Of a stretch of DNA of 38,029 nucleotides, positions 2,778-28,074 are shown piece after piece. The translations under genes were made by a program, and so were the position numbers. Source of the DNA: an uncultured Chlorobiota bacterium (GTDB lineage: Bacteria > Bacteroidota > Bacteroidia > Bacteroidales > JAADGE01). Under the pieces are notes generated by a model. That model saw only the letters and a list, made by a program, of their open reading frames with translations. It did no database searches and was not told where the DNA came from. The DNA lies in NCBI GenBank assembly GCA_947311255.1, contig CAMZKL010000073.1, positions 1 to 38,029 of the forward strand, written 5' to 3'. Each line of letters starts with the position of its first letter. Positions within the stretch are counted from its first letter, which is position 1.

Positions 2778-2780
2778 AAA

Positions 2781-4769: not shown

Positions 4770-4777
4770 AAACAAAG

Positions 4778-4804: not shown

Positions 4805-4890
4805 ACTAATTTAAAAAGCATTCAAAACTAATAATCAAACTGTTAGAGAATTTCATATTTTATACCATGAAAATTTTATATTTTTTTTTT

Positions 4891-4898
4891 TATTTTTG
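4891..4898 (+). promoter_or_regulatory. -7 promoter element of the nuo operon (TATTTTTG)
   Basis: The sequence matches the Bacteroidota sigma-ABfr -7 consensus TAnnTTTG exactly and sits 39 bp before the nuoA ATG, giving a short leader of about 30 nt. No convincing -33 TTTG at 19-21 bp spacing was seen; the upstream region is T-rich. Confidence 0.5.
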
Positions 4899-4937
4899 CG
4901 CCGTCATTATAAAATTAAGTATATAAAATATAAACAT

Positions 4938-5288
4938 ATGGGAATTGAAGCCTTATTAGTCTTTCCAATAGCTGGCATTGCACTTATTTTGATAGCAAAT
5001 TTCTTATCAAATTTAATTTCATATAAATCTGAAAATGAAAGAAAAAAAGAACCCTACGAAAGCGGAATGCAAACAATCGGCAAAACTTGGATACAGTTTA
5101 AAGTCGGTTATTATTTGTTTGCTATTATATTTTTAATTTTTGATGTAGAGGTTGTTTTTTTAATGCCTTGGGCAGTTGTTTTTAAAGATATTGGAGCAGT
5201 TGCTTTTTTTGAAATAGCCATTTTCTTGGTTATTTTAGGAATAGGTTTACTTTACGCATGGAAAAAAAGAGCATTAAGATGGGAGTAA
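4938..5288 (+). CDS. nuoA: NADH-quinone oxidoreductase subunit A (complex I)
   Basis: This 116-residue membrane subunit has three transmembrane helices and the hallmark segments KKEPYESG (loop 1) and [12 protein letters not shown] (helix 2, with the conserved Asp and Glu). NuoA helps shape the quinone-access cavity with NuoH and NuoJ. An upstream in-frame TTG at 4896 overlaps the predicted -7 element, so the ATG at 4938 is the likely start. It is the first gene of the nuo operon and overlaps nuoB by 10 bp. Confidence 0.97.
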
Positions 5289-5857
5289 TTATAAAAAAAA
5301 CAAAAGATGATGTTATTAATTTCCCGGGAAAAATTATTCCTGGAGGAAACGGTGGAAATATTGTTGTAACAACATTAGATAGTTTAATTAATTGGGGAAG
5401 GAAAAATTCACTTTGGCCCCTATATTTTGGAACAAGTTGTTGTGCAATTGAAATGATGCAAACCGGTGCAGCAAAACACGATTGGTCTCGTTTTGGTTTT
5501 GAAGTAGCAAGACCCACACCGCGTCAGGCCGATTTGATAGTGATTGCCGGAACAATAACAACTAAAATGGCACCTGTATTACGTCGATTATACGACCAAA
5601 TGGCTGAGCCAAAGTATGTTATTGCAATGGGTGCATGTGCAGTTTCTGGAGGACCTTTTTATTTTAATTCATATTCTGTAGTAAGAGGAGCAGACCATAT
5701 TATTCCTGTTGATGTTTATGTGCCTGGATGTCCTCCAAGACCAGAAGCACTACTTGATGGAATGATGGCGCTACAAAATAAAATTAAGCACGAAAGTATG
5801 GCACACCGCACAAAAAATAACCCAATTGAAGGTTTTGATGAAGGAAAAAATAAATAA
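5279..5857 (+). CDS. nuoB: NADH-quinone oxidoreductase subunit B (N2 cluster)
   Basis: NuoB carries the terminal [4Fe-4S] cluster N2, which reduces quinone. All four ligands are present: the adjacent Cys54-Cys55 in [10 protein letters not shown], Cys120 in MGACAVSGG and Cys151 in PGCPPRPE. The ATG at 5279 overlaps the end of nuoA by 10 bp and gives the normal family length (192 aa). An alternative ATG at 5258 would add seven residues and overlap by 31 bp. Confidence 0.97.
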
Positions 5858-5866
5858 ATCCTGACT

Positions 5867-6328
5867 ATGACAAATTTAGAAATTAAAAATAAAATTGAAG
5901 CACTACAAAGCGGATTAACTTATTCTAGTGAAGATACAGATTTTCTTTGCATTGAAGTTCCGAAAGATTTGATAAAAGAATTTCTTTTAGAAATAAGAAA
6001 TAACGAAGATTTATCTTTTGATTATCTTTTTGCTCTTTCAGGAATTGATTTTGGAGAAGATTTAGGGGTAATATATCATTTAGAATCTTCAAAATATAAA
6101 CATTTAATCCAAATAACAGTAAAAACTTCCGATAGAGAAAATCCTACAATTGATAGCATTCATGAAATATATCCTGCTGCATATTTTAATGAAATGGAAG
6201 CACACGAGTTCTTTGGAATAAAATTTATTGGGCATCCGAATTTAAAAAACTTATTCCTTCCAGCAGATTGGGATAAAGGATTTCCCATGAGAAAAGATTA
6301 TACTGACACAAATATGTTGATAAGATAA
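5867..6328 (+). CDS. nuoC: NADH-quinone oxidoreductase subunit C
   Basis: This 153-residue peripheral-arm subunit is of the 30-kDa family. The family signature is near the C-terminus: AHEFFGIKFIGHPNL, then LFLPADW and PMRKDYTD. It is a separate gene here, unlike the fused nuoCD of some Bacteroidota and enterobacteria. It lies 9 bp after nuoB and 5 bp before nuoD. Confidence 0.95.
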   Translation: MTNLEIKNKIEALQSGLTYSSEDTDFLCIEVPKDLIKEFLLEIRNNEDLSFDYLFALSGIDFGEDLGVIYHLESSKYKHLIQITVKTSDRENPTIDSIHEIYPAAYFNEMEAHEFFGIKFIGHPNLKNLFLPADWDKGFPMRKDYTDTNMLIR

Positions 6329-6333
6329 AAAAT

Positions 6334-7452
6334 ATGAAAGAATTTTTAACAGATCAACTTAAGACGCAAGAATATTTCCTAAATATGGGACCTCAGCACC
6401 CTGCGACACATGGTGTTTTGAGACTATTACTTAAACTGGACGGGGAAATTGTTCGAAATGTTGATATGGATTTAGGTTATATACATCGTTCCATTGAAAA
6501 AATGTGTGAACGAGCAACCTATAAACAAATTATTCATTTAACAGATAGATTAGATTACCTTTCTGCACATATGAATAATGAAGCTGTTTGTCTTCTTGCA
6601 GAAAAAGCACTTAATATTGAGGTAAACGACCGTATTAAAATAATAAGAACAATAATGGATGAGCTTACGCGTATTTCATCTCATGTTTTATGGTGGGGAG
6701 TTACGGGTATGGATATTGGTGCAATAACAACTTTTATGTATGGTTTTAGAGAAAGAGAGTTAATAAATGATATTTTTGAAGAAACTTGTGGCACACGCCT
6801 TACTATGAACTATAATGTTATAGGCGGACTAAGATATGATATACACGAAAATTTTGTTAAAAGAACCAAAGATATCTTAACGCATTTAAAGAAAAAACTT
6901 CCTGAATATGATAAATTACTTACTAATAATATAATATTTCAAAAACGTTTAATAAACATAGGAGTTATTTCCGTAGAAGATGCAATTGCATATGGTCTTA
7001 ATGGTCCAACAGCAAGAGGGTCAGGAGTATCATGTGATATTAGAAAAACTCATCCATACAGTGCATATGATATGGTAGATTTTGAAGAAGCAATTTTTAC
7101 AGAAGGAGATTCTTTTGCAAGGTATAAAGTAAGAATTAAAGAAATGTGGGAATCAATTTCAATTATAGAGCAATTGATTGATAAAATTCCGAATGATGAG
7201 CATAAGGTAAAAACAAAGGCAGTTATTAAATTACCTGTTGGAGATTTTTTGCAAAGAGTAGAAGCATCAAGAGGAGATTTTGGAGTTTATGTTAAAAGTA
7301 ACGGCCAGAAATTTCCAGAAAGATTAAAATTTCGTTCTCCCGGTTTTGCAAATTTAACTGCATTAAATAAAATGGCTTACGGACTTAAAATTGCTGATTT
7401 AGTTGCAATATTATCAACTATTGATGTTGTTGTTCCTGATATTGACAGATAA
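6334..7452 (+). CDS. nuoD: NADH-quinone oxidoreductase subunit D (49-kDa)
   Basis: NuoD forms the quinone-binding site with NuoB. MGPQHPATHGVLR near residues 18-30 holds the quinone-contacting His, GYIHRSIEKMCE follows, and DRLDYLSAHMN holds the quinone-site Tyr75. The C-terminus ends in the typical VVVPDIDR. At 372 aa it is the usual length for an unfused NuoD. The hydrogenase-like fold has lost its NiFe ligands, as in all NuoD proteins. Confidence 0.97.
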   Translation: MKEFLTDQLKTQEYFLNMGPQHPATHGVLRLLLKLDGEIVRNVDMDLGYIHRSIEKMCERATYKQIIHLTDRLDYLSAHMNNEAVCLLAEKALNIEVNDRIKIIRTIMDELTRISSHVLWWGVTGMDIGAITTFMYGFRERELINDIFEETCGTRLTMNYNVIGGLRYDIHENFVKRTKDILTHLKKKLPEYDKLLTNNIIFQKRLINIGVISVEDAIAYGLNGPTARGSGVSCDIRKTHPYSAYDMVDFEEAIFTEGDSFARYKVRIKEMWESISIIEQLIDKIPNDEHKVKTKAVIKLPVGDFLQRVEASRGDFGVYVKSNGQKFPERLKFRSPGFANLTALNKMAYGLKIADLVAILSTIDVVVPDIDR

Positions 7453-7464
7453 AATTATAAAATT

Positions 7465-8517
7465 ATGATATTAAATATTTTTACTGATATTCACGAATTA
7501 CTGCTCGGACTAATGCCTGAGAATATTGTTCATATTACAGAATTAGTACTAATTGCAGTAGCTTATCTTGGAATATTTGCAATTTTAGGGCTTTTCTTAG
7601 TTTGGTTAGAAAGGCGAATTGCAGCATTTTTTCAATTTCGTTTAGGACCTAACAGAGTTGGACCTATGGGGTTGTTCCAAACAGTTGCTGATGCCTTAAA
7701 ATTAGTTTCAAAAGAACTAACAGGAACTGAAAAAGCAGATAAGTTTCTTTACAAAATTGCACCATATTTTGTTATTACAACAGCTTTAATGTCTTTATCA
7801 TTAATACCTTTTTCTTATGAAATTCATGCTTTTGATATAAACATTGGCTTATTTTTCTTAACATCAGTTTCATCAGTGGGTGTTTTAGGAATTTTCTTAG
7901 CAGGTTGGGCAAGTAATAATAAATATTCACTTATTGGAGGAATGCGAACAGGAATTCAAATGATAAGTTATGAACTTTCCGTAGGAATGGCAATTGTTAC
8001 AATGGTTGTACTTGCAGGAACTCTTCAAATTTCAGAAATTGTTGAAATTCAAAAGGATGGTTGGCTAATTTACCAAGGACATATACCGGCAATTATTGCA
8101 TTTATGATTTTTATGATTGCAGGAACAGCTGAATCTAATAGAACACCTTTTGATTTGGTAGAAGCAGAATCTGAATTAGGAGCAGGATTTCATACAGAGT
8201 ATTCAGGGATGAATTTTGCATATTATTTTTTAGCAGAATTTGTTAATCTATTTTTAATATCTTCGGTTGCTGTGATACTATTTTTTGGAGGTTGGTTATC
8301 ACCTTTTGGAATAACAGACGCTATACCTTTCGCTGGATTATTTTGGTTTATAATAAAAGTATTGGGAGTAATATTTATTTTCATGTGGTTTCGTTGGACT
8401 TTTCCCAGATTTAGAATTGACCAGTTATTAACCTTAGAATGGAAATTTTTACTTCCCATAAATATGGTAAATATTGTTTTAATGGCACTAATGGTTTGGT
8501 TAGGATTAACCTTATAA
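7465..8517 (+). CDS. nuoH: NADH-quinone oxidoreductase subunit H
   Basis: NuoH is the membrane subunit that anchors the peripheral arm and lines the quinone channel. It shows ERRIAAFFQFRLGPNRVGPMG near residue 50 and the acidic loop EAESELGAGFHTEYSGM near residue 230, both diagnostic. The product has 350 residues and about eight helices. It starts 12 bp after nuoD, with no nuoE, nuoF or nuoG between them. Confidence 0.97.
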   Translation: MILNIFTDIHELLLGLMPENIVHITELVLIAVAYLGIFAILGLFLVWLERRIAAFFQFRLGPNRVGPMGLFQTVADALKLVSKELTGTEKADKFLYKIAPYFVITTALMSLSLIPFSYEIHAFDINIGLFFLTSVSSVGVLGIFLAGWASNNKYSLIGGMRTGIQMISYELSVGMAIVTMVVLAGTLQISEIVEIQKDGWLIYQGHIPAIIAFMIFMIAGTAESNRTPFDLVEAESELGAGFHTEYSGMNFAYYFLAEFVNLFLISSVAVILFFGGWLSPFGITDAIPFAGLFWFIIKVLGVIFIFMWFRWTFPRFRIDQLLTLEWKFLLPINMVNIVLMALMVWLGLTL

Positions 8518-8528
8518 TTGCAAAAAAT

Positions 8529-9014
8529 ATGAGTTATTTTTCAGATATAATAAACGGAACAAAAACGCTTCTTACAGGAATGCGTGTAACGGGTGGTTAT
8601 TTTTTCGTGAATTTCTTTACGAAAAGAGATGTAATTACGCAACAATACCCTAATAATATAGAAACACTTGAAATGTTTGATCGTTTTAAAGGTGAAGTTA
8701 TAATGCTTCATAATGAAAACAATGAACATAGATGTGATGCTTGTACCTTGTGTGAAAAAGCTTGTCCAAATGGTTCAATTGAAATATTGGGAGACAAGGC
8801 AAAAGACCCTGAAACAGGAAAAAATAAACGTTTTTTGGTAAAACATATTTATCATCTTCAAATGTGCACTATGTGTGGTCTTTGTATTGAAGCATGCCCT
8901 GTTAATGCAATTGATTGGGGACAAGATTTTCATCATGTAGAATATGATAGGTCTTTATTAACAAAAGTTTTAAATAAACCCGGTTCTAAAATAATGAGCG
9001 GGATAAAAGGATAA
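8529..9014 (+). CDS. nuoI: NADH-quinone oxidoreductase subunit I (two [4Fe-4S] clusters)
   Basis: Two ferredoxin motifs are complete: Cys69/72/75/79 (CDACTLCEKACP) and Cys113/116/119/123 (CTMCGLCIEACP), which bind clusters N6a and N6b. The frame is open upstream to 8439 but that part overlaps nuoH; the ATG at 8529 gives a normal N-terminus (161 aa) and a start 11 bp after nuoH. Without NuoEFG, electrons probably enter the complex through or next to this subunit. Confidence 0.96.
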   Translation: MSYFSDIINGTKTLLTGMRVTGGYFFVNFFTKRDVITQQYPNNIETLEMFDRFKGEVIMLHNENNEHRCDACTLCEKACPNGSIEILGDKAKDPETGKNKRFLVKHIYHLQMCTMCGLCIEACPVNAIDWGQDFHHVEYDRSLLTKVLNKPGSKIMSGIKG

Positions 9015-9018
9015 TTAA

Positions 9019-9549
9019 ATGGAAAGAATAATCTTTTACATAATATCGTTGCTTATAATTGTTTTTGCAGTAATGGCAGTTAGCAACAGAAATCTTATGA
9101 GATCAATTATTTATTTGCTTTTTGTTCTTATCGGAATAGCAGGAATATATTTTATAATTGAATTTTATTTTCTCGGAGCAGTTCAACTTACAGTTTATGC
9201 AGGAGGAATAATTATTCTCTACGTAAACTCTATAATGTTGGTTGAAAAAATCAATACACCATTAGATTTAGCTAAATTTTGGAAAAGGCTTTTAGCAGGA
9301 GCTATTGCCTTTGTAGGAACTTTTCTTACATTAATTGCCATTTGGTCTTATAATTTTAAAACGGTTGGTGTTGAAAAAGATACAAGCATTAGAGAAATTG
9401 GAAATGCACTGCTAGGCTACGGAGATAAGGGATATATTTTACCTTTTGAAGTAATTAGTATTTTACTTTTAGCTGCAATGGTAGGTGCAATTGTAATTGC
9501 AAAAACAAAAAAAATACAAAATATAAAGAACAAAACTAATATATTATGA
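9019..9549 (+). CDS. nuoJ: NADH-quinone oxidoreductase subunit J
   Basis: This membrane subunit has about five helices and the conserved GAVQLTVYAGGIIILYVNSIML segment near residues 55-75, which includes the pi-bulge region of helix 3. The length of 176 aa is normal. It overlaps nuoK by the ATGA stop/start tetranucleotide, implying translational coupling. Confidence 0.95.
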   Translation: MERIIFYIISLLIIVFAVMAVSNRNLMRSIIYLLFVLIGIAGIYFIIEFYFLGAVQLTVYAGGIIILYVNSIMLVEKINTPLDLAKFWKRLLAGAIAFVGTFLTLIAIWSYNFKTVGVEKDTSIREIGNALLGYGDKGYILPFEVISILLLAAMVGAIVIAKTKKIQNIKNKTNIL

Positions 9550-9863
9550 TTTTAGGAGTCAGTATATACGAAATATTAACAGTAAGTACAATTATCTTTT
9601 TTATTGGCTTATATGGTTTCTTTACAAGGAAAAATTTAATTGCAATGCTAATGTCCGTTGAATTAATACTTAATTCAGCTGCTTTAAATTTTGTAATTAT
9701 TAATAAATATTTATTTCCTGAGGAAATAGGAGGAGCAATATTCTCAATATTTATCATTGCCGTAGCTGCAGCAGAAACAGCCTTAGCATTAGCAATAATA
9801 ATTAATCTATATAGATTAACTATGAGTTTGAAAACAGATGAAATAGAAACTTTGAAATTTTAA
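9546..9863 (+). CDS. nuoK: NADH-quinone oxidoreductase subunit K
   Basis: This 105-residue MrpC-like subunit has three helices. The two buried glutamates needed for proton transfer are present in MSVELILNSAALNF and AAAETALALAI. It starts within the nuoJ stop (ATGA) and ends 6 bp before nuoL. Confidence 0.96.
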   Translation: MILGVSIYEILTVSTIIFFIGLYGFFTRKNLIAMLMSVELILNSAALNFVIINKYLFPEEIGGAIFSIFIIAVAAAETALALAIIINLYRLTMSLKTDEIETLKF

Positions 9864-9869
9864 AAAAAT

Positions 9870-11789
9870 ATGGATTTAAGTTACACAGTTTTAATACCAC
9901 TAATACCTTTATTTATGTTCCTTTTCCTAGGACTAAATTATAAAAGGATAAAAGAACCTATTTCTGGATATATTGGAACAGCAGGGATGTTAATTACGGC
10001 ATTAATATCATTCTATACGTCATTTCAATATTTTTTCAATTACGGAAAAGTTGATGGAGTATATCAAAAAATATACGCATATAATACTCTTTGGGTCAAC
10101 TTTACTGAGACTCTTCATATTGATATGGGGGTTTTATTAGATCCAATTTCTGCCGTTATGCTTATTGTAGTTCCTTTAATTTCTTTAATGGTTCATTTCT
10201 ATAGTATTGGCTATATGAAAAAAGAACCAGGATTTACAAGATTCTTTGCATACCTTTCATTATTTACATTCTCAATGTTAGGGTTAGTTCTTGCTACAAA
10301 CCTTTTTCAAATTTATATTTTTTGGGAAATGGTAGGAGTATCATCTTATTTGCTTATTGGATATTATTTTGAGAAACCATCTGCAATTCTTGCAGCAAAG
10401 AAAGCTTTTATTGTAACACGTTTTGCCGATTTTGGTTTTCTTGTAGGTATTTTAATTGTTAGTTTTTATGCTAAAACATTTGATTTTAAGATACTTACAG
10501 ATTTAGATTTTATAAATAACTTACAACTGCAAACAGGTCTTTTCATGGGCTTGTCCGTGATAACTTGGGCATTAATTTTAATTTTTATAGGAGGTGCAGG
10601 TAAATCTGCAATGTTCCCTCTTCACATATGGTTACCAGATGCAATGGAAGGGCCTACTCCCGTTTCAGCATTAATTCATGCAGCAACAATGGTTGTAGCC
10701 GGAGTTTTCCTTGTTGCAAGATTATTCCCAATGTTCTTTTTCTTTGATGACGGAATTGCTTTGGATGTAGTTGCATGGGTTGGTGCATTTACGACACTTT
10801 TTGCAGCAATAATTGCAATAACGCAATATGACATAAAACGTGTTTTGGCATTTTCTACAATGTCGCAAATTGGATATATGATGCTTGCACTTGGTGTTTC
10901 CGGATATAGCGGACACGAAGGATTAGGTTTTATGGCAAGTATGTTCCATTTATTCACTCATGCAATGTTTAAAGCACTTTTATTTTTAGGAGCAGGAGCC
11001 ATAATACATGCTGTTCATAGCAATTATATGCAAGACATGGGAGGATTAAGAAAGTATATGCCAATTACACATATTACATTTTTACTTGCTGCATTAGCAA
11101 TTTCAGGAATACCTCCATTTGCTGGTTTTTTCAGCAAAGATGAAATTCTTGCAGCTGCATTTGAGCATAATATGCCTGTTTTTATTATAGGATTCATAGT
11201 TGCAGGAATGACAGCTTTCTATATGTTCAGACTTTATTTTAGAATATTCTGGTGGACTAATCCCGAATATAAACATACACCACATGAAGCACCAAAGTTT
11301 ATGACTATTCCTTTAATAATTCTAGCTTTAATGACTGTTGGTTCAGGATTTATACCTTTTGATAAACTTGTTTCTGCAGATAGTACTCCATTTCATTCTC
11401 ATATAGATTGGAGTATTGCTAGTGCATCCATTGCAATTGGTGTTATAGGAATTCTTTTCGCAATGTTATTCTACAAAAAAGAAAATGATTTATCAAAACG
11501 TTTTACAATTGCTTTTGGAAGTCTTCATACATGGGCATATAACAAATTTTATATTGATGAAGTTTACAATTTTGTAACTAAAACAATTATTTTTAAATAT
11601 ATATCAGGCTCTTTTGCTTGGTTCGACAAAAAAGTAGTTGACGGTTCAATGAATGGAATTGGAAACTCAACAGTTTGGATAAGTTCAAAAATAAAAGGGT
11701 TACAATCTGGTAGAGTTCAAGATTATGCAATGTTTTTTATCTCAGGTGTTTTAATGATAATAATGATTGTTTGGTTATTCCTTAATTAA
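9870..11789 (+). CDS. nuoL: NADH-quinone oxidoreductase subunit L (antiporter-like)
   Basis: NuoL is the distal antiporter-like proton-pumping subunit. It shows the helix-5 glutamate in IFWEMVGVSSYLLIGYY, the helix-7 lysine region GGAGKSAMFPLHIWLPDAMEGPTPVSALIHAATMV, and a C-terminal extension consistent with the long lateral helix. The length of 639 aa is typical. Confidence 0.97.
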   Translation: MDLSYTVLIPLIPLFMFLFLGLNYKRIKEPISGYIGTAGMLITALISFYTSFQYFFNYGKVDGVYQKIYAYNTLWVNFTETLHIDMGVLLDPISAVMLIVVPLISLMVHFYSIGYMKKEPGFTRFFAYLSLFTFSMLGLVLATNLFQIYIFWEMVGVSSYLLIGYYFEKPSAILAAKKAFIVTRFADFGFLVGILIVSFYAKTFDFKILTDLDFINNLQLQTGLFMGLSVITWALILIFIGGAGKSAMFPLHIWLPDAMEGPTPVSALIHAATMVVAGVFLVARLFPMFFFFDDGIALDVVAWVGAFTTLFAAIIAITQYDIKRVLAFSTMSQIGYMMLALGVSGYSGHEGLGFMASMFHLFTHAMFKALLFLGAGAIIHAVHSNYMQDMGGLRKYMPITHITFLLAALAISGIPPFAGFFSKDEILAAAFEHNMPVFIIGFIVAGMTAFYMFRLYFRIFWWTNPEYKHTPHEAPKFMTIPLIILALMTVGSGFIPFDKLVSADSTPFHSHIDWSIASASIAIGVIGILFAMLFYKKENDLSKRFTIAFGSLHTWAYNKFYIDEVYNFVTKTIIFKYISGSFAWFDKKVVDGSMNGIGNSTVWISSKIKGLQSGRVQDYAMFFISGVLMIIMIVWLFLN

Positions 11790-11805
11790 AAAATAGAAAG
11801 AAATT

Positions 11806-13299
11806 ATGATAGATATTTTAACATTATTTGTAGTAGTTCCTGTCATTACAGTCTTTGGTTTAATGTTTGTAAAGGGCAAAAACAACTTTAGGCTTGTTGC
11901 ATTAATTGGTTCTGTAATCCAAGCTTTAATGTCTTTTAATTTGATATATCAATTTCTTGCTGAAAGAACAGCAGGAAACAAAGCAATTATGCTTTTTACA
12001 AAAGACGTAATATGGTTTGAACCGATGAATATTCATTATTCTATTGGGGTTGATGGTATTTCAATATTAATGATTATGTTAACATCAATTATTGTTCTTA
12101 CAGGTGTTTTTATTTCATGGAAAGTTGATGATTTACCAAAAGAATTTTTTGTTTCTTTAATTGTATTAGCATCAGGTGTTTACGGATTTTTTATTTCTGT
12201 AGATTTATTTACAATGTTTGTATTTTATGAAATTGCTGTAATTCCAATGTATTTGCTTATAGGAATTTGGGGAACAGGACCAAGAGAATATGCAGCAATG
12301 AAATTAACTTTGATGTTAATGGGAGCATCTGCATTATTGCTTGTTGGTATTCTTGGGGTTTATTTTAATTCAAACGCAGATGGAGGAGCATTAACATTTA
12401 ATTTATTTGAGATTGGAAAAGTTAGTATTCCAGAATCTGCACAAATTGTGTTTTTCCCTTTCTTGTTTATTGGCTTTGCAGTTATTGGCGCATTTTTTCC
12501 TTTTCATACTTGGTCGCCCGATGGTCATGCTTCTGCTCCAACTGCAGTATCTATGCTTCATGCAGGAGTTCTAATGAAGCTAGGAGGTTATGGTATTTTT
12601 AGGTTTGCAATGTATGTAATGCCTCTTGGTGCACATTATTGGGCTGATATTTTTATGGTATTTGCAGTAATAGGAGTTTTCTATGGAGCTTTGGCAGCAA
12701 TAAAACAAACAGATTTAAAATATATAAACGCCTATTCATCAGTAAGCCATTTGAGTTTGGTATTATTAGCTTTATTAATGATGAATGAAATTTCATGGAA
12801 AGGTGCAATGTTGCAATCATTATCTCATGGATTTATTACAGCACTTTTCTTTGCACTTATTGGAATAATTTACGGCAGAACTCATACTAGAATTGTAACA
12901 AAAATGAGTGGTTTGCTAAATGTTATTCCTGTTGCAGGTGCGTTATACGTAATTGCCGGTATGGCAAATTTAGGATTACCGGGCTTTTCTGGCTTTGTGG
13001 CAGAAATGAATATTTTTGTAGGAGCATTTCAACATGCCGATACATTTCATAGAATAATAACTATTCTAGCAGTTTCGTCAATTGTAGTAACTGCTGTTTA
13101 TATTCTAAGAGTTGTAGGAATGATATTAATGGGGCCCACAACACCCGAATTTACAAATTTACCAAAAATTGCCTGGTATGAAAAAACAGGAACATATATT
13201 CTTGTGTTATTCATTACATTAATAGGTATTTTTCCGTTTTGGTGGGGTGGAATTATTTCGGAGAGTGTAACTCCTTTTATTGAAAAATTAATAAACTAA
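11806..13299 (+). CDS. nuoM: NADH-quinone oxidoreductase subunit M (antiporter-like)
   Basis: NuoM is the second antiporter-like pump subunit. It shows the helix-5 Glu in FVFYEIAVIPMYLLIGIWG and the motif HTWSPDGHASAPTAVSMLHAGVLMKLGGYG. The 497 residues fit the family and the gene follows nuoL by 16 bp. Confidence 0.97.
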   Translation: MIDILTLFVVVPVITVFGLMFVKGKNNFRLVALIGSVIQALMSFNLIYQFLAERTAGNKAIMLFTKDVIWFEPMNIHYSIGVDGISILMIMLTSIIVLTGVFISWKVDDLPKEFFVSLIVLASGVYGFFISVDLFTMFVFYEIAVIPMYLLIGIWGTGPREYAAMKLTLMLMGASALLLVGILGVYFNSNADGGALTFNLFEIGKVSIPESAQIVFFPFLFIGFAVIGAFFPFHTWSPDGHASAPTAVSMLHAGVLMKLGGYGIFRFAMYVMPLGAHYWADIFMVFAVIGVFYGALAAIKQTDLKYINAYSSVSHLSLVLLALLMMNEISWKGAMLQSLSHGFITALFFALIGIIYGRTHTRIVTKMSGLLNVIPVAGALYVIAGMANLGLPGFSGFVAEMNIFVGAFQHADTFHRIITILAVSSIVVTAVYILRVVGMILMGPTTPEFTNLPKIAWYEKTGTYILVLFITLIGIFPFWWGGIISESVTPFIEKLIN

Positions 13300-13319
13300 A
13301 AAAAAAATCTTTTTAAGAT

Positions 13320-14750
13320 ATGAATTTGAATAATATGTTATTAATGAGACATGAATTAGTATTGACACTTGTTATACTAATTCTTCTTATCGCCGATATT
13401 TTTGTAAGTGATAAGAATAAAAAAACAGTTAGTTATATTGCAGTAGGTTTATTTGCAATTCATACTTTAATTGGTTTTATTCCTTTGAAAGAAGGTGTTC
13501 TTTTTGGAGGAATGTTTGTTAGTAATCCATTAGTTTATGGATTTAAAAACATTTTAAATATTGGAGTGCTTCTTATAATACTTTTAGCTGTTTCATGGCT
13601 CAATAAAAAGAGTTTGAAAAATGGAAAAATTGGTGAGTTTTATATTTTAATATTCGCTTCTCTTTTAGGAATGTTTTTTTTAATTTCTTCTCGGAATTTC
13701 TTAATGCTTTATTTATCTTTAGAACTTTCTACTTTACCTGTTGCTGCACTTGCTTCATATGATATTTATAACAGAAAATCATCAGAAGCAGGTATTAAGT
13801 TGATTCTTTCTGCTGCAATATCATCTGGAATTTTATTATTCGGAATGTCATTACTTTATGCTGTTGGCGGTAGTCTTTATTTTAATAACTTAACTGGTAA
13901 TATTGGTGTTTCATACCTTTCAATTGCTGGTTTAGTAATGTTTTTTGCTGGTTTGGCATTTAAAATTTCATTAGTTCCTTTCCATTTCTGGACAGCAGAT
14001 GTATATGAAGGAGCTCCAACACCTGTTGCAAATTACTTATCGGTAATTTCAAAAGCAGCAGCTGTTTTTATTTTAATGGTAACTTTATTTATAACTCTAA
14101 GAGAATTAAAAGAAATTTGGGTTCCAATATTATATGGAGTTTCTATACTTACAATGTTTGTGGGAAACTTTTTTGCACTTCGCCAAAAGAATCTTAAACG
14201 TTTTTTGGCATTTTCATCAGTTGCACAAGCTGGTTTTATTATGATGGGAATGGTATCTGCTGATGATCTTGCAGTTTCAACAGTAATTTATTTTATGGCA
14301 ATTTATATTTTCTCGAATATTGGAGCTTTTGGAGTTGTTCAAATTATTTCATTAGTGAGTGGAAAAGAAAATATTGACGATTATAATGGATTATACAGAA
14401 CAAATCCGATGTTGAGTCTTACATTAATGATTGCTTTATTTTCATTAGCTGGTATTCCTCCTATTGCAGGATTTTTTGGTAAGTTTTTCTTATATATGCC
14501 TGCTGCAAGTCAGGGTTTCTACATTCTAATATTTATAGCTGTTGTGAATGTAACAATTTCATTATATTATTATTTATTGGTAATTAGAGCAGCATTCCTC
14601 AGAAGAAGTGAAACTCCTATACCCTACTTTAAAAGTGATATTTTCACAAGAATAGGATTGTTATTAGTAGTAATTGCATTGTTTGTTTTAGGTATTTACA
14701 GTCCGTTCTATGATTATATTCACTCTATAACTAACATCTTAAATATTTAG
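13320..14750 (+). CDS. nuoN: NADH-quinone oxidoreductase subunit N (antiporter-like)
   Basis: NuoN is the third antiporter-like subunit. It shows LSLELSTLPVAALASYD (helix-5 Glu) and FHFWTADVYEGAPTPVANYLSVISKAAA (helix-7/8 region). Length is 476 aa. It is the last recognised complex I gene, and only 3 bp separate it from a small unknown gene. Confidence 0.97.
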   Translation: MNLNNMLLMRHELVLTLVILILLIADIFVSDKNKKTVSYIAVGLFAIHTLIGFIPLKEGVLFGGMFVSNPLVYGFKNILNIGVLLIILLAVSWLNKKSLKNGKIGEFYILIFASLLGMFFLISSRNFLMLYLSLELSTLPVAALASYDIYNRKSSEAGIKLILSAAISSGILLFGMSLLYAVGGSLYFNNLTGNIGVSYLSIAGLVMFFAGLAFKISLVPFHFWTADVYEGAPTPVANYLSVISKAAAVFILMVTLFITLRELKEIWVPILYGVSILTMFVGNFFALRQKNLKRFLAFSSVAQAGFIMMGMVSADDLAVSTVIYFMAIYIFSNIGAFGVVQIISLVSGKENIDDYNGLYRTNPMLSLTLMIALFSLAGIPPIAGFFGKFFLYMPAASQGFYILIFIAVVNVTISLYYYLLVIRAAFLRRSETPIPYFKSDIFTRIGLLLVVIALFVLGIYSPFYDYIHSITNILNI

Positions 14751-14753
14751 ATT

Positions 14754-15071
14754 ATGAGCATGCCAATTAAACATTTAACCGGAAAAATAGGAGACAAACT
14801 TTTAACATTTGTTGAGAAAGAAGCTTCTGAAGAAAGAAAGAATTTTCTAAAAGGCTTATTAGAATTTAATGGTTTTGAAGTTATTATAGAAGAAAATACT
14901 GCAAAAGAAGGAGAAAATACATCCTATATTGTTGCTGTTACAGATTTAATATTTAATCCTGTTATTTGGGTGTATGATAGGAATTTAAAAACACCTGAAG
15001 GAAACATTGTTAATGAAGATTATTGGATGCAAATAAACCAAGATTTTAAACCGCAATATTACGAAAGGTAA
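14754..15071 (+). CDS. small soluble protein of unknown function at the end of the nuo operon
   Basis: This 105-residue, mostly charged protein has no signal peptide or membrane helix. The first half looks helical (KLLTFVEKEASEERKNFLKGLLEFNG) and the second half looks like strands (FEVIIEENT, YIVAVTDLIFNPVIWVYDR). No family was recognised. It starts 3 bp after nuoN and ends before the operon terminator, so it is transcribed with complex I. It may be an assembly or regulatory factor, but this rests on position only. An alternative start is the ATG two codons later. Confidence 0.8.
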   Translation: MSMPIKHLTGKIGDKLLTFVEKEASEERKNFLKGLLEFNGFEVIIEENTAKEGENTSYIVAVTDLIFNPVIWVYDRNLKTPEGNIVNEDYWMQINQDFKPQYYER

Positions 15072-20752: not shown

Positions 20753-22807
20753 TTATTTTTCTTTAAGATAAGTATAGGTATCAACTTGTGCTCTATATTT
20801 TTTTGAATTATTTTTTCTTTCTTTCTTTATATTATTAATATTTTCATCTAAGAATTTAGCTTTTGTATTATCTCTTAATTGAATATGTAGGATGTCAATA
20901 ATTTCATTAATTAATTCTTTATCATAAATAGGAACCATCATTTCTACTCTTCTCCTCAAATTTCTAGTAAGTAAATCGGAAGAGGAAATATACACTTCCC
21001 ATTCTCCTGAATTATAAAATGCATAAATTCGTGAGTGTTCTAAATATCTGTCAATAATTCTTGTTATTTTTATGTTTTTACTGTATGGCATTCTTGGTTT
21101 TAGTTTGCAAATACCTCTTACAATTAGTTCGATGTCAACATTTTCAGATGAAGCCTGGTATAGGTAATCAATCATTTCTTTATCTCCAATACCATTCATT
21201 TTTAATATTAAATGAGCTTTTTTTCCTTGTTTTGAATTTTTAATTTCTCTATCAATTTTTTCTTTAAAAACATCTATCATATTAAATCTTGGAACTAAAA
21301 TATTTTTAAATTCAAAAGTTTCAAGAGGAGTTTCTAAATACAAAAATATTTTTTTAATATCTTTAATAATTCTTTTTTCAGAAGTAAAAAAACCTTCATC
21401 AGCATATTGCTTGGCAGTTTTTTCGTTAAAATTTCCGGTGCCTGTAAAAACATATGATTTTTCTTTATCAGATACTTTTCTTGTAACTAAAGCAACTTTT
21501 GCATGAACTTTTAATCCAGGAATTCCTGCAATAATATGTATTCCAGCTTTTTTCATTTTGTCTGCAAATTTTATATTGCTTGCTTCATCAAATCTTGCTC
21601 TTAATTCTACATATACAGTTACATCTTTGCCATTTTCGGCAGCTGCAATTAACGCATTAACTATTGCAGAATTTGTTGCAACTCTGTATTGTGTTGTTTT
21701 TATTTCAATTACGTATGGATCTATTGCTGCTTCATTAAAAAATTTAAGCACATAATTATAAGTATGATATGGAAAATGAAGCAGAATATCATGTTTATCT
21801 ATTGCTGAGAAAATAGAATCATATTGTTCAAAAATTGGATGTTTTAAAGATTTTACCGGTTCAAGTTCAAATTTTGGACTAAATGGGTTTTTAAATGTAA
21901 AGAAATCACTAAAATTCAGATACTTTCCAACAGAAAAAAAGTCTTCTTCAGTTAAATTAAATGCTAATTTTAATACTTCAGATAAATCGTCGGGCATAGT
22001 TCTATCATACGAAAATCTTGCAGGAAATCCTGTTTTTCTTTTTTTTAAATTCTTTCTTAATTTACTTAAAATGTCTCCTGAAAACTCATCTTCTATCATT
22101 AAATCAGCATTCCTAGAAAGTTTTATGCTATATGATGATAAAATATTATATCCAGGAAAAATATTAGTTAAATGTTGCCTAATCATATCTTCAAGGAAAA
22201 TAACAAAATATTTTCCTTTATAGTCTGGAAGTTGGATAAAGCGTCCTAAAGTATTTGTTGGCACTTGAATTACTGCATATCTTGGTTTAATATTATGAGG
22301 TCTATCTTTTCTCTGCATTTTTATTGCAAGATATATTACATTATCTTTTAAAAATGACATAACTGCACCTGAACTAGATAATAATACGGGTTGAATTTCC
22401 GGAAACAGCTCATTTGAGAAGTATTCTTTTATAAAATATATATGTTTATCTTCAAGTTTTTGGTTGTTAAAAATTAATATTCCGGATTCTTCTAATTCCG
22501 GAATTATTTGGTTATAATATTCATTTTCATAATCAATTTGTTGTTTTAAAACTTCTTCTTTTATATTTTCTAAAACTTTTTTAGGCTTATAATCTAAATT
22601 TTTTATATTTTTCTTTTTTAAACCAATTAAGCTTCGTTGGTTTGCTACTCGTACACGATAAAATTCATCTAAGTTTGAAGAATATATTGCTAAAAATTTG
22701 ATACGTTCAAATAATGGTAGTTCTTTATCTTTAATCTGTTCTAAAACTAGTCTGTTAAAGGATAACCAGCTTAATTCTCTGTCGTGATATTTATATTCTT
22801 CGCTCAT
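20753..22807 (-). CDS. ppk1: polyphosphate kinase 1
   Basis: This enzyme makes polyphosphate reversibly from ATP. The N-terminal signature HDRELSWLSFNRLVLEQ and FLAIYSSNLDEFYRVRV is typical. The phosphorylated His435 is in GLKVHAKVAL, and the second essential His591 is in LEHSRIYAF, inside the two phospholipase-D-like catalytic domains. The length of 684 aa is normal. It is transcribed alone, with a -7 element 19 bp before its ATG. Confidence 0.96.
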   Translation of the reverse strand: MSEEYKYHDRELSWLSFNRLVLEQIKDKELPLFERIKFLAIYSSNLDEFYRVRVANQRSLIGLKKKNIKNLDYKPKKVLENIKEEVLKQQIDYENEYYNQIIPELEESGILIFNNQKLEDKHIYFIKEYFSNELFPEIQPVLLSSSGAVMSFLKDNVIYLAIKMQRKDRPHNIKPRYAVIQVPTNTLGRFIQLPDYKGKYFVIFLEDMIRQHLTNIFPGYNILSSYSIKLSRNADLMIEDEFSGDILSKLRKNLKKRKTGFPARFSYDRTMPDDLSEVLKLAFNLTEEDFFSVGKYLNFSDFFTFKNPFSPKFELEPVKSLKHPIFEQYDSIFSAIDKHDILLHFPYHTYNYVLKFFNEAAIDPYVIEIKTTQYRVATNSAIVNALIAAAENGKDVTVYVELRARFDEASNIKFADKMKKAGIHIIAGIPGLKVHAKVALVTRKVSDKEKSYVFTGTGNFNEKTAKQYADEGFFTSEKRIIKDIKKIFLYLETPLETFEFKNILVPRFNMIDVFKEKIDREIKNSKQGKKAHLILKMNGIGDKEMIDYLYQASSENVDIELIVRGICKLKPRMPYSKNIKITRIIDRYLEHSRIYAFYNSGEWEVYISSSDLLTRNLRRRVEMMVPIYDKELINEIIDILHIQLRDNTKAKFLDENINNIKKERKNNSKKYRAQVDTYTYLKEK

Positions 22808-23010: not shown

Positions 23011-24999
23011 TTACCTAAGAATTTTACGAACAAAAGCAACTGTAAAATATGACATTAAAAACAAACCTACAAAACCCTCAATTGATGAAATCCATCTGGA
23101 AATTCCATCTGGATAATAATCTCCGTAACCTATTGTTAGAAAGGTTATTGCACTATGATAAAATGCTTTGCCTATTGGATTTAAAACTTTTGGGTCGTCT
23201 GGTGGAAAGAGTGAAGATACTATGTGTACGTCGCCAAATTTTGCTAACATAATATACATAAATGTAAAAAGAAGATATGTTACCAGCATAGTAAAAAGAA
23301 CTCGCAAGGGATCTGTTGCAAATTTGCCCATCTTGTCAAAGATTAACCATTTGAAAACGTACTTTACATATGCTAGTATTTTCTGATTTTTATTTATATC
23401 TTCTTCTAAGTGAGCATTTGCTTCTGTTCTTTTAAATTCAACATATGCTTCATCTTCATAGGAATATTGCCCGATTAAATTGTAATTTTCTTTTAAAATT
23501 CTAAATTGTTCTTCCTTACTTTTTATTGTAGTATTTTGACTATATATTAATTCTTTAACATTTGTTCTTCGCCAGTCTATATATATTCTTCCAAGTAGTC
23601 TCATTCCTGAAAAATCTATCGCTTCAATTTTTGGGTCAAAATCAGGAGGGTTAATATCAAGTATATATTTTACAACAGTATGAGAAAGGTCAAGTGTTTT
23701 ACATTCAGATACTTGTAAGTTGAAATAATTGTCTAACTGGGAGCTGCTTAAAGATAAAATTCTAAAACATGACTTGTGGAAAGATATTTTTCCTATTCCA
23801 AAATCTACATTTATAATTTTAACATCTGCATTTTGAAAATTTGCTTCTTTAAAATTAAATTCTCCTTTTCCAAAAACAGAGTCTTTAATAATTAGTTCGC
23901 CCGACAGAGTTGTTCCTTCAAAATTAATATCTCCATCACCAAAATATGTTTTATTAAAGCTTACTTTTCCTTCTCCAAAATCAGCGGCTTTTAAGTTAAT
24001 TCCTCCATTTATAAATTTTGTTCTATCAAATTGAATATTTCCTTTTCCAAATTCGCAAAAATGGAAGTCACAAGTCCCTTGTCCGAAAATAGATAATCTG
24101 AATGAAACTGTTCCATTAGCAAAATTTGTATTTTTAAAATATATATTTCCGTTACCAAAATTTGTGTTTATAAATGATTTTTTACCTTTCCCAAACTCTA
24201 CACTAGTAAAGCTAACTTTACCATTTTGAAAATCGGCGGACCTAAAAGATACATCTCCATCTCCAAATATTGCTTTTTCAAAAGAGGTTTCATCTTTTCC
24301 AAATTTAACTCTTGAAAAATCAACTTTTCCTTTTCCAAAATTTGCAACTTTAAATGAATTACTTCCGGAACTAAAATTAGTATCGGTAAAAAGCACATCT
24401 CCTGAATTAAAATCTACATTTATAAATAGTACTTTACCGTGTTGAAATTCAATGTTTTGAAAATCTTTATGTCCATCTGAGAAAATTGCATTTTTAAATG
24501 TTACATTTCCTTCTGAGAATGAACTTTTGGAGAAGTTGACGTTTTTGCATCTAAAAAGAGTATCACTAAAGTCTGTTTCTTCTGCAAAAAACGAAGAGTT
24601 TGAGAAGTCTATGGTATTACAGCAAAAAATTGTATTCTTAAAATTTATTTTCTTACTCTCAAAAAGAACATTTGAGAAATCAAGGTTTTCATTTTTATTA
24701 TAGAATATTGAATTTGAGGCAGAAAAATTTGAAAGGATTATTTTTTTTTCTAAAATTTTAGATTTTAAAAAATTAAGATTATAGTGTTCTATTAAACAAT
24801 AATCTAATTGTAGTTCGTTATTGGAAGTAATGTAATCTTCAATATATTCATTATCTGCGAAACCTTTTTTTTCTTCTGATAGTAGTTTTTTTTTTGAAGA
24901 AAAATATTTAATAATTGCTGTTTTTGGATAAATAAAATCCTTATATTCATATTTATCATTAATTATATCTACCTCAAAATAAGAAAACAGCCTTTGCAT
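23011..24999 (-). CDS. K+ channel with a long N-terminal 12-residue-repeat solenoid
   Basis: Residues 1-112 are unrecognised. Residues 113-411 are 25 tandem repeats of the form F-G-x-G-x-v-x-F-x4: Phe at positions 1 and 8, Gly often at 2 and 4. The period is exactly 12 except one 11-residue unit at 365-375. A linker (~412-560) follows, then a two-helix pore: TM1 ~566-586, pore helix and selectivity filter TIGYGD (622-627), TM2 ~637-657. TIGYGD is the classic K+ filter. The solenoid resembles pentapeptide-repeat proteins in its Phe-rich ladder, but the period is not five. With no signal peptide, the repeats should be cytosolic. It starts 18 bp after the SiaB/SiaC fusion gene, so the two are probably one operon. 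Confidence 0.9.
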   Translation of the reverse strand: MQRLFSYFEVDIINDKYEYKDFIYPKTAIIKYFSSKKKLLSEEKKGFADNEYIEDYITSNNELQLDYCLIEHYNLNFLKSKILEKKIILSNFSASNSIFYNKNENLDFSNVLFESKKINFKNTIFCCNTIDFSNSSFFAEETDFSDTLFRCKNVNFSKSSFSEGNVTFKNAIFSDGHKDFQNIEFQHGKVLFINVDFNSGDVLFTDTNFSSGSNSFKVANFGKGKVDFSRVKFGKDETSFEKAIFGDGDVSFRSADFQNGKVSFTSVEFGKGKKSFINTNFGNGNIYFKNTNFANGTVSFRLSIFGQGTCDFHFCEFGKGNIQFDRTKFINGGINLKAADFGEGKVSFNKTYFGDGDINFEGTTLSGELIIKDSVFGKGEFNFKEANFQNADVKIINVDFGIGKISFHKSCFRILSLSSSQLDNYFNLQVSECKTLDLSHTVVKYILDINPPDFDPKIEAIDFSGMRLLGRIYIDWRRTNVKELIYSQNTTIKSKEEQFRILKENYNLIGQYSYEDEAYVEFKRTEANAHLEEDINKNQKILAYVKYVFKWLIFDKMGKFATDPLRVLFTMLVTYLLFTFMYIMLAKFGDVHIVSSLFPPDDPKVLNPIGKAFYHSAITFLTIGYGDYYPDGISRWISSIEGFVGLFLMSYFTVAFVRKILR
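23767..24663 (-). repeat. 25 coding repeats of 36 bp (12 residues each)
   Basis: This is the DNA of the solenoid in the channel gene. At protein level the phase is kept for ~300 residues; the DNA copies have diverged, so recent expansion by slippage is unlikely. Unit 22 lacks one codon. Antisense open frames here arise from the repeat composition. Confidence 0.9.
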
Positions 25000-25017: not shown

Positions 25018-26565
25018 TTATGCTTGATTATCAATTTCTTCTTCGTCTTCCATTAGCTCAATTATTTCAATATCTAATTCAATAAGTTCTTTGAATTTTC
25101 TACCATCATTAAGCATTGAAATATCACCGGTATTATAATGCCATTTAACTTCAACTTTATTATTTTTAGAAATTTCTTCAAGAATTAAAAGTACCTTAAC
25201 TAGTTGTCTGTCAGTAGCAGTATTATAATAGTCAAACTGAAAAATTACAGTTGTTTTTTCTGCTGGGTGTTTTTTATACAAGTTTAACCAGTCAACAACA
25301 GGTTTAAAAAAACTAACTGCATTTTCAGGAATTGATTTTCCTTTAAAGCTAATAATACCTTTTCTAGAATCAAGAGATATTTCAGGAGTATCGTCCTGCT
25401 CTTGAATTATGTAGTTTCCTAATCCGTCTTTCATTTTGTTTGTATATATTTTTAATTTAAAAAATGAAAATTCTTCATCTATCTTATAAAAATCATAAAT
25501 AAATGGTGTTTTGCTTTTTAACTTAATATCAAGTAAACCCAAACCGGGGTTTTCATCTGATGATTTTTTATTGATATTTAATAAAGTTTCATTATAAGCA
25601 ACTTCTTGTTCTTTTTCAGTTAAACTATTTGTATATTCTAGTCTGTCTTTAAAATCATCAATTTTTGAATTAAGAATATAGTTACCCGAAGTAAATATTA
25701 GTTTATCAGAAGTTTCGCGTATAAAAAATATTGCATGCTTTCCTTTTACTTTATTGAAAATATATTCATCTGCATGATTTACAATATTTTGCAAAACTTC
25801 AACCATAATATTAAAAACTTTCATTTTTAAAATTACAGTTCCTTGAAGTTGATATTCTGTAATAGCTAGTAAACTAACTAAAGTTTCCTGAGTGAAAGCA
25901 CCAATAAAATTTAGAAGAATATTCTGCTTTTCTAATAACTTATGCCTCTGAATAATTCTATTTATTGATTCATTTCCATTATCTTTTGATTCGATTCCGG
26001 TGTCAAGAATTTTAGTGTGCATATAAAAGAAGGAATATATTTCATTTATTTCACTAAATTTATATACTAATTTACATCCTGATTTACGAGCAATTTCAAT
26101 TAATCCAAGCCCTGCACCACCCTTGTCAGAATATGCACCTTCATCTAATATTTCTAATGAGTATTCTTTTAATTCTTGTTTACTTAGGCTGTTAATTTTG
26201 TCTATTTGTGCCTTAATATTTTTTTTATTCTCTTTTTTTATTAAATTACCTGTTGTTATATAATAACCATCAGGTTTATACTCAACAGCAAATAGACCTG
26301 GAAATCCAACTTCTTCTTCAAATTGATTTGAACTTTGGTGTCTTGTTATATTTTGCAAACCTTCAACAATTATAAAAAAAACTCTTTTTCTTATTTTCTT
26401 TTCAACATTTTCATTTTGAAGATTTGATTCTGTAAGAGAAAGGATGGTATCTGTTATTTTTGTAGTGAAACTTCCTCTATAGGTGTATTCCATAATACTT
26501 CCTTGCATACTTTTAAAAAGATTAAAAGCAAAGTTATTATTTTTTTCTATAAAGGAAATATCCAT
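25018..26565 (-). CDS. SiaB-SiaB-SiaC fusion: two GHKL-like kinase domains joined to a SiaC-type phospho-target
   Basis: Residues ~10-190 and ~205-375 are two related SiaB-like (DUF6272) ATPase domains. Each keeps an N-box (Glu68-Asn72-His76 in VEGLQNITRH; Glu256-Asn260-His264 in VEVLQNIVNH) and a G-box (GGAGLGLIEIA near 149; NPGLGLLDIK near 339). Residues ~390-505 match the SiaC/DUF1987 family: TPEISLDSRKGIISFKGKSIPEN, then FFKPVVDWLNLY and FDYYNTATDRQ, where Thr449 corresponds to the Thr of the conserved YFNTSSSK region phosphorylated in SiaC. In Pseudomonas SiaB phosphorylates SiaC and a PP2C phosphatase reverses it; these are normally separate proteins. Here kinase and target are one polypeptide. 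It is cytosolic and precedes the K+ channel gene by 18 bp. Confidence 0.87.
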   Translation of the reverse strand: MDISFIEKNNNFAFNLFKSMQGSIMEYTYRGSFTTKITDTILSLTESNLQNENVEKKIRKRVFFIIVEGLQNITRHQSSNQFEEEVGFPGLFAVEYKPDGYYITTGNLIKKENKKNIKAQIDKINSLSKQELKEYSLEILDEGAYSDKGGAGLGLIEIARKSGCKLVYKFSEINEIYSFFYMHTKILDTGIESKDNGNESINRIIQRHKLLEKQNILLNFIGAFTQETLVSLLAITEYQLQGTVILKMKVFNIMVEVLQNIVNHADEYIFNKVKGKHAIFFIRETSDKLIFTSGNYILNSKIDDFKDRLEYTNSLTEKEQEVAYNETLLNINKKSSDENPGLGLLDIKLKSKTPFIYDFYKIDEEFSFFKLKIYTNKMKDGLGNYIIQEQDDTPEISLDSRKGIISFKGKSIPENAVSFFKPVVDWLNLYKKHPAEKTTVIFQFDYYNTATDRQLVKVLLILEEISKNNKVEVKWHYNTGDISMLNDGRKFKELIELDIEIIELMEDEEEIDNQA

Positions 26566-26688: not shown

Positions 26689-28074
26689 TTAGTCTATATG
26701 TTCAGTTTCAATAATTAGTGCTGAAATTGTTTTTTTACTATTTTTTACACTAAACGACGGATTTTGTTGACGAAAGGATATATTTGCTCCGTGAACTAAC
26801 TTGTCTTTTAAAACTTTTTGTATTCTGACTTTGAAAGAACCTGAGGAATTTTCAATTTTTTGTTTAATTTCTTCAATATTTAATTTTTCTTTCGAATATA
26901 AAACACACAAATAATCTTTGCCAATTGTGTTATCTGTTTGTATAAAATGTTCTTCATCCGGAATTGCTATTCTGTTATTAGAATAATTTAATGCAGGAGA
27001 AATGCCTGGTTTGTGTGGAAATATTGTAAAAGTTTTCCCGGTAGCATCAAAACCAAAGGCATAAACAAACGCTGGTTCCGAATTAGAAATATATAATCTA
27101 AATTTGGTTCCAGACCGATAGGCTTCAACAGTTTTGTAAATTCCATTATAATAAGTAGCTTTACTTTCAACACCATCGGATTTAACAAACTTTACACTTC
27201 CCGAAAAACTATACTTCTTTTCAATTTTATTACTTTTAAATTTTATCATTTCATAAGCATATTTTACAAAATCATGAAAATCTGCATATTTTACCCAAAT
27301 AAAACCTTCATTTCCCCATTTAGTTCCCCAACTATTAATTATTTCAAAAGCTCCTCCATATTTTGAATCATCATATCCAATAACGCACATTGCGTGTCCG
27401 CCATATATTAGCTTACTACTTTCAGTAGGTTTCCATACACCAAAGGCAGTGTTAAAAGAGGGAGGAACATTCATTCCAATTATAACAGGATTATTTTCTG
27501 ATAAACTTTTCTTTACAGCTTTAATTTTAAAATCTTTTGAATCAAACATACTGAATATTTTTGCATAATCAGTTATCTTATATTGTTTAGCTTTTGCAAA
27601 AACATCAGCAGGAAGATAAGAAGGGCAATTAGCTTCTGACATATCAGAAAATTTACAAACTCCTTTTGTTTTCATTATGTCCAAAGCATTTTTTATTGAA
27701 GATCCTAGTTTGCAATAAGTATCTGTTGAAGATTTTATTTGTTTATAAATAAAGCCAGGTGAAAAAGTATTTGCAGTTGTTTTAATTAAGTCTGTTCTTT
27801 TTTTATTTATTGACTCAAGAATTGTCATACCGGCATATGCCGAAGACCATCCAACACAAGTTCCATATTGCCCCTGACTATTTGGAATTGGAGCATATTT
27901 TTTCAGAGAATATGATTTTGGAAGCTCTGAATAAAGACTTCTAGTTAAATTTGCTTTTTTCTTTACTGTTTTATATTCTGCATCATTAAAATTTAAACCA
28001 AATCCGTGTTCTTGCGAAAGAATTAAACTAAATGTAAAAATTAATGATATAAGTAATAAAAAATGTTTTTTCAT
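26689..28074 (-). CDS. secreted C1A (papain-type) cysteine peptidase with DUF4384-like C-terminal domain
   Basis: Signal peptide 1-20 (...ILSQ). The papain fold spans ~50-280 with all key residues: oxyanion Gln67 and nucleophile Cys73 (QGQYGTCVGWSSAY), His227 (GGHAMCVIGYDD) and Asn247 (NSWGTKWGNEGFIWVKY). The C-terminal ~290-430 region (FRLYISNSEPAFVYAFGFDATGKTFTIFP, IAIPDEEHFIQTDN, DYLCVLYSKEKL) resembles DUF4384, a beta-sandwich domain often found in secreted Bacteroidota proteins. No T9SS sorting domain is seen. It could act in the periplasm on proteins or peptides. The long predicted leader shares sequence with two other exported-protein genes. Confidence 0.88.
   Translation of the reverse strand: MKKHFLLLISLIFTFSLILSQEHGFGLNFNDAEYKTVKKKANLTRSLYSELPKSYSLKKYAPIPNSQGQYGTCVGWSSAYAGMTILESINKKRTDLIKTTANTFSPGFIYKQIKSSTDTYCKLGSSIKNALDIMKTKGVCKFSDMSEANCPSYLPADVFAKAKQYKITDYAKIFSMFDSKDFKIKAVKKSLSENNPVIIGMNVPPSFNTAFGVWKPTESSKLIYGGHAMCVIGYDDSKYGGAFEIINSWGTKWGNEGFIWVKYADFHDFVKYAYEMIKFKSNKIEKKYSFSGSVKFVKSDGVESKATYYNGIYKTVEAYRSGTKFRLYISNSEPAFVYAFGFDATGKTFTIFPHKPGISPALNYSNNRIAIPDEEHFIQTDNTIGKDYLCVLYSKEKLNIEEIKQKIENSSGSFKVRIQKVLKDKLVHGANISFRQQNPSFSVKNSKKTISALIIETEHID

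Follow-up and report, generated by a model that had tools for sequence, protein, structure and literature searches.

A stretch of DNA of 38,029 nucleotides (the window) was found to encode a 515-residue protein in which two SiaB-type kinase domains and a SiaC-type target domain are merged in a single chain. Both families are already known, and what is new is their joining in the order SiaB-SiaB-SiaC. The fusion was confirmed as a real architecture, conserved in a group of uncultured Bacteroidales-like bacteria. Its gene usually has that of a potassium-channel-like protein beside it, a setting suggestive of a signalling switch whose output is of a new type. The positions of the gene and its parts are as follows.

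25018..26565, minus strand: fused SiaB-SiaB-SiaC protein, 515 aa (open reading frame; Pfam, NCBIfam and solved-structure matches)
26008..26526, minus strand: kinase domain 1, residues 14-186, with E68, N72, N107 and KGGAGLGL at 148-155 (Pfam, alignment)
25438..25944, minus strand: kinase domain 2, residues 208-376, with E256, N260, N295 and a reduced G-box, GLG at 341-343 (profile, alignment)
25390..25437, minus strand: linker joining kinase domain 2 to the SiaC domain, residues 377-392 (length 16 in 26 of 27 fusions, 15 in one)
25057..25407, minus strand: SiaC (PF09345) domain, residues 387-503 (Pfam)
25219..25221, minus strand: codon of Thr449, which corresponds to Thr68 in Pseudomonas SiaC (alignment; T in 26 of 27 fusions)

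The frame runs from 26565 to 25018; on the plus strand this region is interrupted by numerous stops. Profile searches bore out the domain order given in the original prediction, which had been drawn from the sequence alone. DUF6272 (PF19788) matched in two stretches, the best at residues 49-180 (E 9.8e-64; 213.4 bits against a cut-off of 26.6), and SiaC (PF09345/DUF1987) matched at 387-503 (E 2.3e-31; 108.4 bits against 24.5), within the segment 385-515 where it had been expected, with all three stretches above the curated Pfam cut-offs. The SiaB family kinase model of NCBIfam (NF038262) also matched two stretches, scoring 226.5 bits where the cut-off is 85. Scores for the Pseudomonas SiaB and SiaC equivalogs NF038264 and NF038265 fell below cut-off (102.4 against 225 and 63.9 against 150 bits), and the domains of the fusion therefore belong to the same families as P. 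aeruginosa SiaB and SiaC and are different proteins. Among solved structures, 6kko chain A (SiaB) matched residues 31-182 (3.4e-9), domain 1 being the only one of the two kinase domains aligned, while 6kko chain C and 6k4f (SiaC) matched residues 390-493 (6e-9).

The first kinase domain contains an N-box (E68..N72) and a complete G-box, KGGAGLGL. The second contains an N-box (E256..N260) and a G-box without its first glycines, the conserved part of which is GLG. Both boxes had been predicted for both domains; this holds for the two N-boxes and for the G-box of domain 1, but domain 2 keeps GLG only, and the two kinase domains are unequal because these first glycines are missing. The SiaC landmarks named beforehand, SIPEN, FFKPVVDWL and YYNTATD, were located at residues 411-415, 419-427 and 446-452, with T at position 449. 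This residue, proposed earlier as the modified one, aligned with the T within LLYLNTSSIK, the peptide that carries T68 in P. aeruginosa SiaC (PMC7647112).

The survey of how common this architecture is, using genome search and gene calling on the loci, returned 27 intact fusions from at least 26 of 99 genomes (own genome included) in nine families. The intact fusion was present in 12/14 genomes of the same genus, in 6/7 belonging to other genera of the family and in 8/78 of the order's other families; G082, in the last group, has two. Family genomes without an intact fusion are G006, where a contig end cuts the gene, G017, where the frame of the SiaC part is broken, and G010, which is 70% complete. 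The genome count is a lower bound, as it rests on the matches listed, and gene calling covered these apart from two weak multi-stop ones. Genes were called by a simple longest-frame script, which in one locus (L113, genome G055) missed a channel gene although the genome search places one there. In an even draw of 395 genomes of the phylum, for which three candidates per genome were scored and places in five of these genomes were later fetched, any match was seen in 22 and no full-length fusion beyond that of the window was seen. Two-domain SiaB-SiaC fusions had been hinted at by stop-to-stop frame lengths; gene calling on 14 fetched loci showed none.

The related records named are metagenome assemblies and one frame, that of G017, is broken, as might be the case if the fused frame were an artefact of sequencing or assembly. 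Occurrence of the intact gene in so many genomes of nine families, with a near-constant linker length, argues against this, and the artefact reading, whose probability we regard as negligible, is refuted by independent assemblies.

Conservation extends to the residues on which function would depend. The ATP-binding residues E68/N72 and E256/N260, at least one pair of which the original prediction needed, are invariant in 27/27 aligned fusions, as is the G-box of domain 1, and residue 449 is T in 26/27, with Lys in one (L087). In a second set, made up of 21 fusions, 27 of 53 unfused SiaBB proteins and 27 of 57 unfused SiaC proteins, the four ATP-site residues were again invariant and the acceptor was T or S in all 48 rows having it, the unfused SiaC sample showing T (23) and S (4). 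Mean pairwise identity was 0.592 for domain 1, 0.542 for domain 2 and 0.485 for the SiaC domain.

These figures also bear on a rather unlikely alternative, in which the fusion phosphorylates other SiaC proteins in trans while the attached SiaC serves for autoinhibition or sensing and sits in the active site until phosphorylated. The genome has 14 further SiaC domains, several without a SiaB gene in the fetched surroundings, and the fusion could thus act through free SiaC. Moreover, the P. aeruginosa SiaB/SiaC complex is described as falling apart on phosphorylation (PMC7647112), so a tethered target could control access to the kinase. Retention of the acceptor threonine in all but one fusion is, however, what is expected of a true target, and the nearest relatives of the fused SiaC domain are other fused SiaC domains. 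The lower conservation of SiaC compared with domain 1 neither favours nor excludes this alternative.

The origin of the fusion was examined in a scan of a collection of 84,980 species genomes, from which the best 80 of 530 confirmed relatives were analysed. Among these best 80 loci, 21 have a fusion (including L137, the broken G017 gene) and 59 have a SiaBB gene, one of them (L134) being a contig-cut end, probably of a fusion. A SiaC gene follows SiaBB in 55 of these 59 loci, with a gap of -4 to 93 bp that is below 16 bp in 48/55. This adjacency indicates that the two proteins were probably partners before fusing. Since many of the relatives found have tandem SiaBB with SiaC as its own gene alongside, what the fusion adds is the joining of BB to C. 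The fused linker (15-16 residues in 27/27) is close to the sum of the unfused SiaBB tail (0-6) and SiaC head (11-14) and, given nearly touching genes, the fusion looks like a lost boundary between neighbours. Its likely ancestor is a two-gene operon, SiaBB followed by SiaC. The SiaBB and SiaC pairs of Bacteroidota resemble the fusion in domain order and are its close kin in sequence; they differ in having a separate SiaC, and a channel was labelled in 0/59 of the SiaBB loci among the best 80. A tree of all 90 rows needs six changes between fused and unfused states. Without L134, whose label is doubtful because of the contig-end cut, and L201, which has the longest branch, two changes are needed; a single fusion clade then has a p-AU of 0.191, so one clade is not rejected.

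The short gaps, and a linker that adds up from the old tails, would also suit a fusion that is still the two-gene form in function, its merger only fixing stoichiometry, perhaps with free SiaC made from an internal start at Met378. This methionine is present in 18/27 fusions and missing in 9/27. The uniform linker may reflect constraint or simply common descent, and some genomes (G014, G015, G018, G056 and G086, for example) hold the fusion and a SiaBB and SiaC pair side by side, which suggests different jobs for the two. We consider such functional equivalence improbable, to about the same degree as action in trans.

Other arrangements of these domains were observed. In the window's own genome, a SiaBB gene is followed by four same-strand SiaC genes in a row (L052:8437-11273, contig C19), an array that offers one kinase unit with four possible targets. 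In an unfused SiaBB of the same genome (L054:11996-13168, contig C5) the N-box Glu of domain 2 is replaced by Lys, so the second half of this protein is probably a pseudokinase. Elsewhere, a 625-aa protein (L216:7162-9039) combines a response regulator, SpoIIE and a DUF6272 kinase beside a SiaC gene; its layout is like that of HsbR, but with a SiaB-type kinase.

The genes around the fusion were also compared. Three neighbours in the window are of importance.

23011..24999, minus strand: potassium-channel-like gene, 662 aa, with pentapeptide-like repeats, candidate output (next downstream, 18 bp gap)
20753..22807, minus strand: polyphosphate kinase (Ppk), third gene of the conserved block (match and conserved context)
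26689..28074, minus strand: papain-family C1 peptidase with DUF4384, upstream neighbour (Pfam)

The channel-like protein has 15 regular F-x4-F-x2-G repeats and, towards its C-terminus, two hydrophobic regions and a TIGYGD filter. The match to Ion_trans_2 (PF07885) has an E value of 1.1e-10, and the C-terminal part is a two-helix potassium channel pore. Among the matches listed, T[IV]GYGD was found in 32 of 33 channel relatives, the remaining one ending before the pore.

A channel gene lies near the fusion in 11/11 other loci of the genus and in 6/7 of the family's other genera, among the latter the broken G017 gene; for Ppk the corresponding figures are 10/11 and 3/7. Outside the family each was found in 3/15 loci, a figure made up of 3/11 loci first compared plus four (L140, L143, L148, L150) showing neither neighbour; of the outside-family loci, L091 and L077 share a genome, and named records such as L138 and L139 were assigned there by the tree and not by family code. 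The C1 peptidase is near the fusion in 11/11, 2/7 and 0/11 loci of the genus, the other genera and other families, respectively. Of the remaining flanking genes (100 aa or longer), 23/75 in the genus, 2/32 in other genera of the family and 0/64 in other families matched another window protein. The genus figures say little because so many of these other flanking genes are also conserved there, and the weight of the channel and Ppk neighbourhood evidence lies in the groups beyond the genus. Two of the four other-genera loci without Ppk (L075 and L095) stop at a contig edge just past the channel, and in G036, G076, G086 and G090 the fusion and channel genes are on different contigs. Across the 78 genomes outside the family, 14 had both SiaBB and channel, 7 SiaBB only, 1 channel only and 56 neither. 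Restricted to the 34 SiaC-bearing genomes among them, the counts were 14, 7, 1 and 12 (p 0.0008, a value that ignores shared ancestry). The cut-offs in this comparison were our own choice (about 1e-59 for SiaBB and about 1e-40 for the channel), with weaker matches, such as those of G057 and G034, not counted.

The same loci speak to a reading in which Ppk instead of the channel is the target of the switch, linking energy state to polyphosphate storage. Its frequency near the fusion in the genus and, to a lesser extent, in the other genera is consistent with this, as are the loci G056, G082 and L139, where Ppk is divergent and directly beside the fusion, so that the link outlasts a changed gene order. 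Within the family, in contrast, Ppk sits behind the channel and does not adjoin the fusion, and in G004 a 73-residue remnant is the only Ppk there. On balance, Ppk as the direct target seems distinctly improbable.

Other genes also lie beside the fusion. In other families a nucleotidyltransferase gene of about 230 aa directly follows the fusion in G056, G064, G086 and G090 (loci L080, L087, L076 and L073), and in G036 a response-regulator adenylyl/guanylyl cyclase is found two frames down. Given these neighbours, the output may not be constant, or gene adjacency may carry little information. A 230-aa gene is also next to the fusion in L150. Upstream of the C1 peptidase and fusion, two genus members have a MORN-repeat caspase (Peptidase_C14; L065:3966-6329 and L059:4535-7726) where the window has HypA. 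The window also holds a long run of same-strand genes (585-15071), in which the product of 9870-11789 is a subunit of a complex I/Mrp-type antiporter. A locus 98% identical (L125) is labelled Chlorobi and further near loci, L127 for instance, are labelled Bacteroidales, so the taxonomic labels disagree.

The fusion belongs to a genome rich in such parts. In 2.8 Mb (94.5% complete) it has 15 SiaC, 11 SiaB and 26 SpoIIE domains; SiaC is present in 55/99 relatives, with up to 21 per genome. No GGDEF match was obtained in this genome at that completeness, while 8/14 control genomes were positive, which makes a Pseudomonas-type output through a diguanylate cyclase unlikely here; as a candidate for this genome, such an output was ruled out on that absence. 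The own genome thus has a large partner-switch network that is apparently free of c-di-GMP, and with many Sia domains and no GGDEF match another output should exist. None of the 26 SpoIIE places of the genome is on the window's contig (C73). Among the best 80 of 530 loci, a SpoIIE gene was found within four genes in 2/21 fused as against 20/59 unfused loci, counts obtained with a profile of eight sequences. In one member of the family (G014; L068:7824-11765) a protein of 1313 aa that combines 4Fe-4S, Fe-only hydrogenase large-subunit, PAS and SpoIIE regions is encoded just upstream of the fusion and separated from it by an 82-aa frame, a hint that redox or hydrogen may be the signal in that genome.

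In P. aeruginosa, SiaB phosphorylates SiaC at T68 and SiaA dephosphorylates it (PMC7278518, PMC7647112), and unphosphorylated SiaC binds and activates SiaD (PMC7278518, PMC8457831). Residues for SiaB dimer formation have been reported (PMC7278518). SiaC-type proteins are called widespread (PMC8457831), and the sole SiaC output described in the sources consulted is the Pseudomonas diguanylate cyclase. Compared with SiaABCD (SiaB kinase, SiaC target, SiaA PP2C phosphatase and SiaD cyclase), the fusion is alike in its kinase and target families and in the aligned acceptor Thr, and SpoIIE-type phosphatases are abundant in its genome. It differs in that a single chain carries two kinase domains plus the target, that its genome gave no GGDEF match, that a potassium channel and Ppk are its neighbours, and that a phosphatase is not encoded with it. 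The nearest precedents found for fused partner-switch components are CapK and HsbR, the target of each being described as a separate protein. CapK/CapS (an HTH-STAS-GHKL kinase and a STAS-wHTH repressor; PMC13373217) shares with the fusion GHKL and STAS in one chain and a STAS-type phosphorylation switch, but the target is the separate CapS, and domain order and families are unlike. HsbR/HsbA (REC-PP2C-GHKL and an anti-sigma factor antagonist; PMC6482189) likewise places several partner-switch parts in one chain; there, unlike in the fusion, phosphatase and kinase are fused and the target is free. In the open-licence papers searched, a description of a SiaB-SiaB-SiaC fusion was not found, and DUF6272, 'SiaB family' and 'SiaC family' had no mention while DUF1987 was named in one.

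Taken as a whole, the fusion is probably a self-contained Sia-type phospho-switch with a non-cyclase output, for which the channel is the best candidate. From the domains, residues, conservation, operon-like ancestry and genome context observed, we infer kinase activity, phosphorylation site, cis or dimer geometry, phosphatase and output. The two SiaB-type GHKL domains may amount to a SiaB dimer made covalent. Domain 1, whose G-box is complete, is most likely the active kinase; domain 2 would be either a weaker second kinase or chiefly a dimer partner that binds ATP. SiaC, tethered to them, would receive phosphate on Thr449, either in cis or between the two chains of a dimer, and the phosphate would be taken off by one of the many separate SpoIIE phosphatases. 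In its dephosphorylated form the SiaC domain would then bind and alter a partner other than a diguanylate cyclase; in this lineage the candidate partner is the channel-like protein, through its repeat domain, with Ppk the second candidate. Tethering may set the ratio of kinase to target and hold the phosphorylated target on the kinase. The position of the switch would then be expected to follow the phosphatase and the ATP/ADP state.

A kinase-target fusion of this type opens the geometry of phosphorylation to direct study in one protein, and its conserved neighbours name two concrete candidate outputs, a potassium channel and a polyphosphate kinase. More specifically, though this version is a tentative one that we think rather unlikely in full, the tandem GHKL kinase and attached SiaC may form a switch free of c-di-GMP that gates the potassium channel by way of cytoplasmic pentapeptide-type repeats. 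Membrane potential would in this way respond to ATP state and to a signal from a SpoIIE phosphatase, and the same block encodes polyphosphate synthesis.
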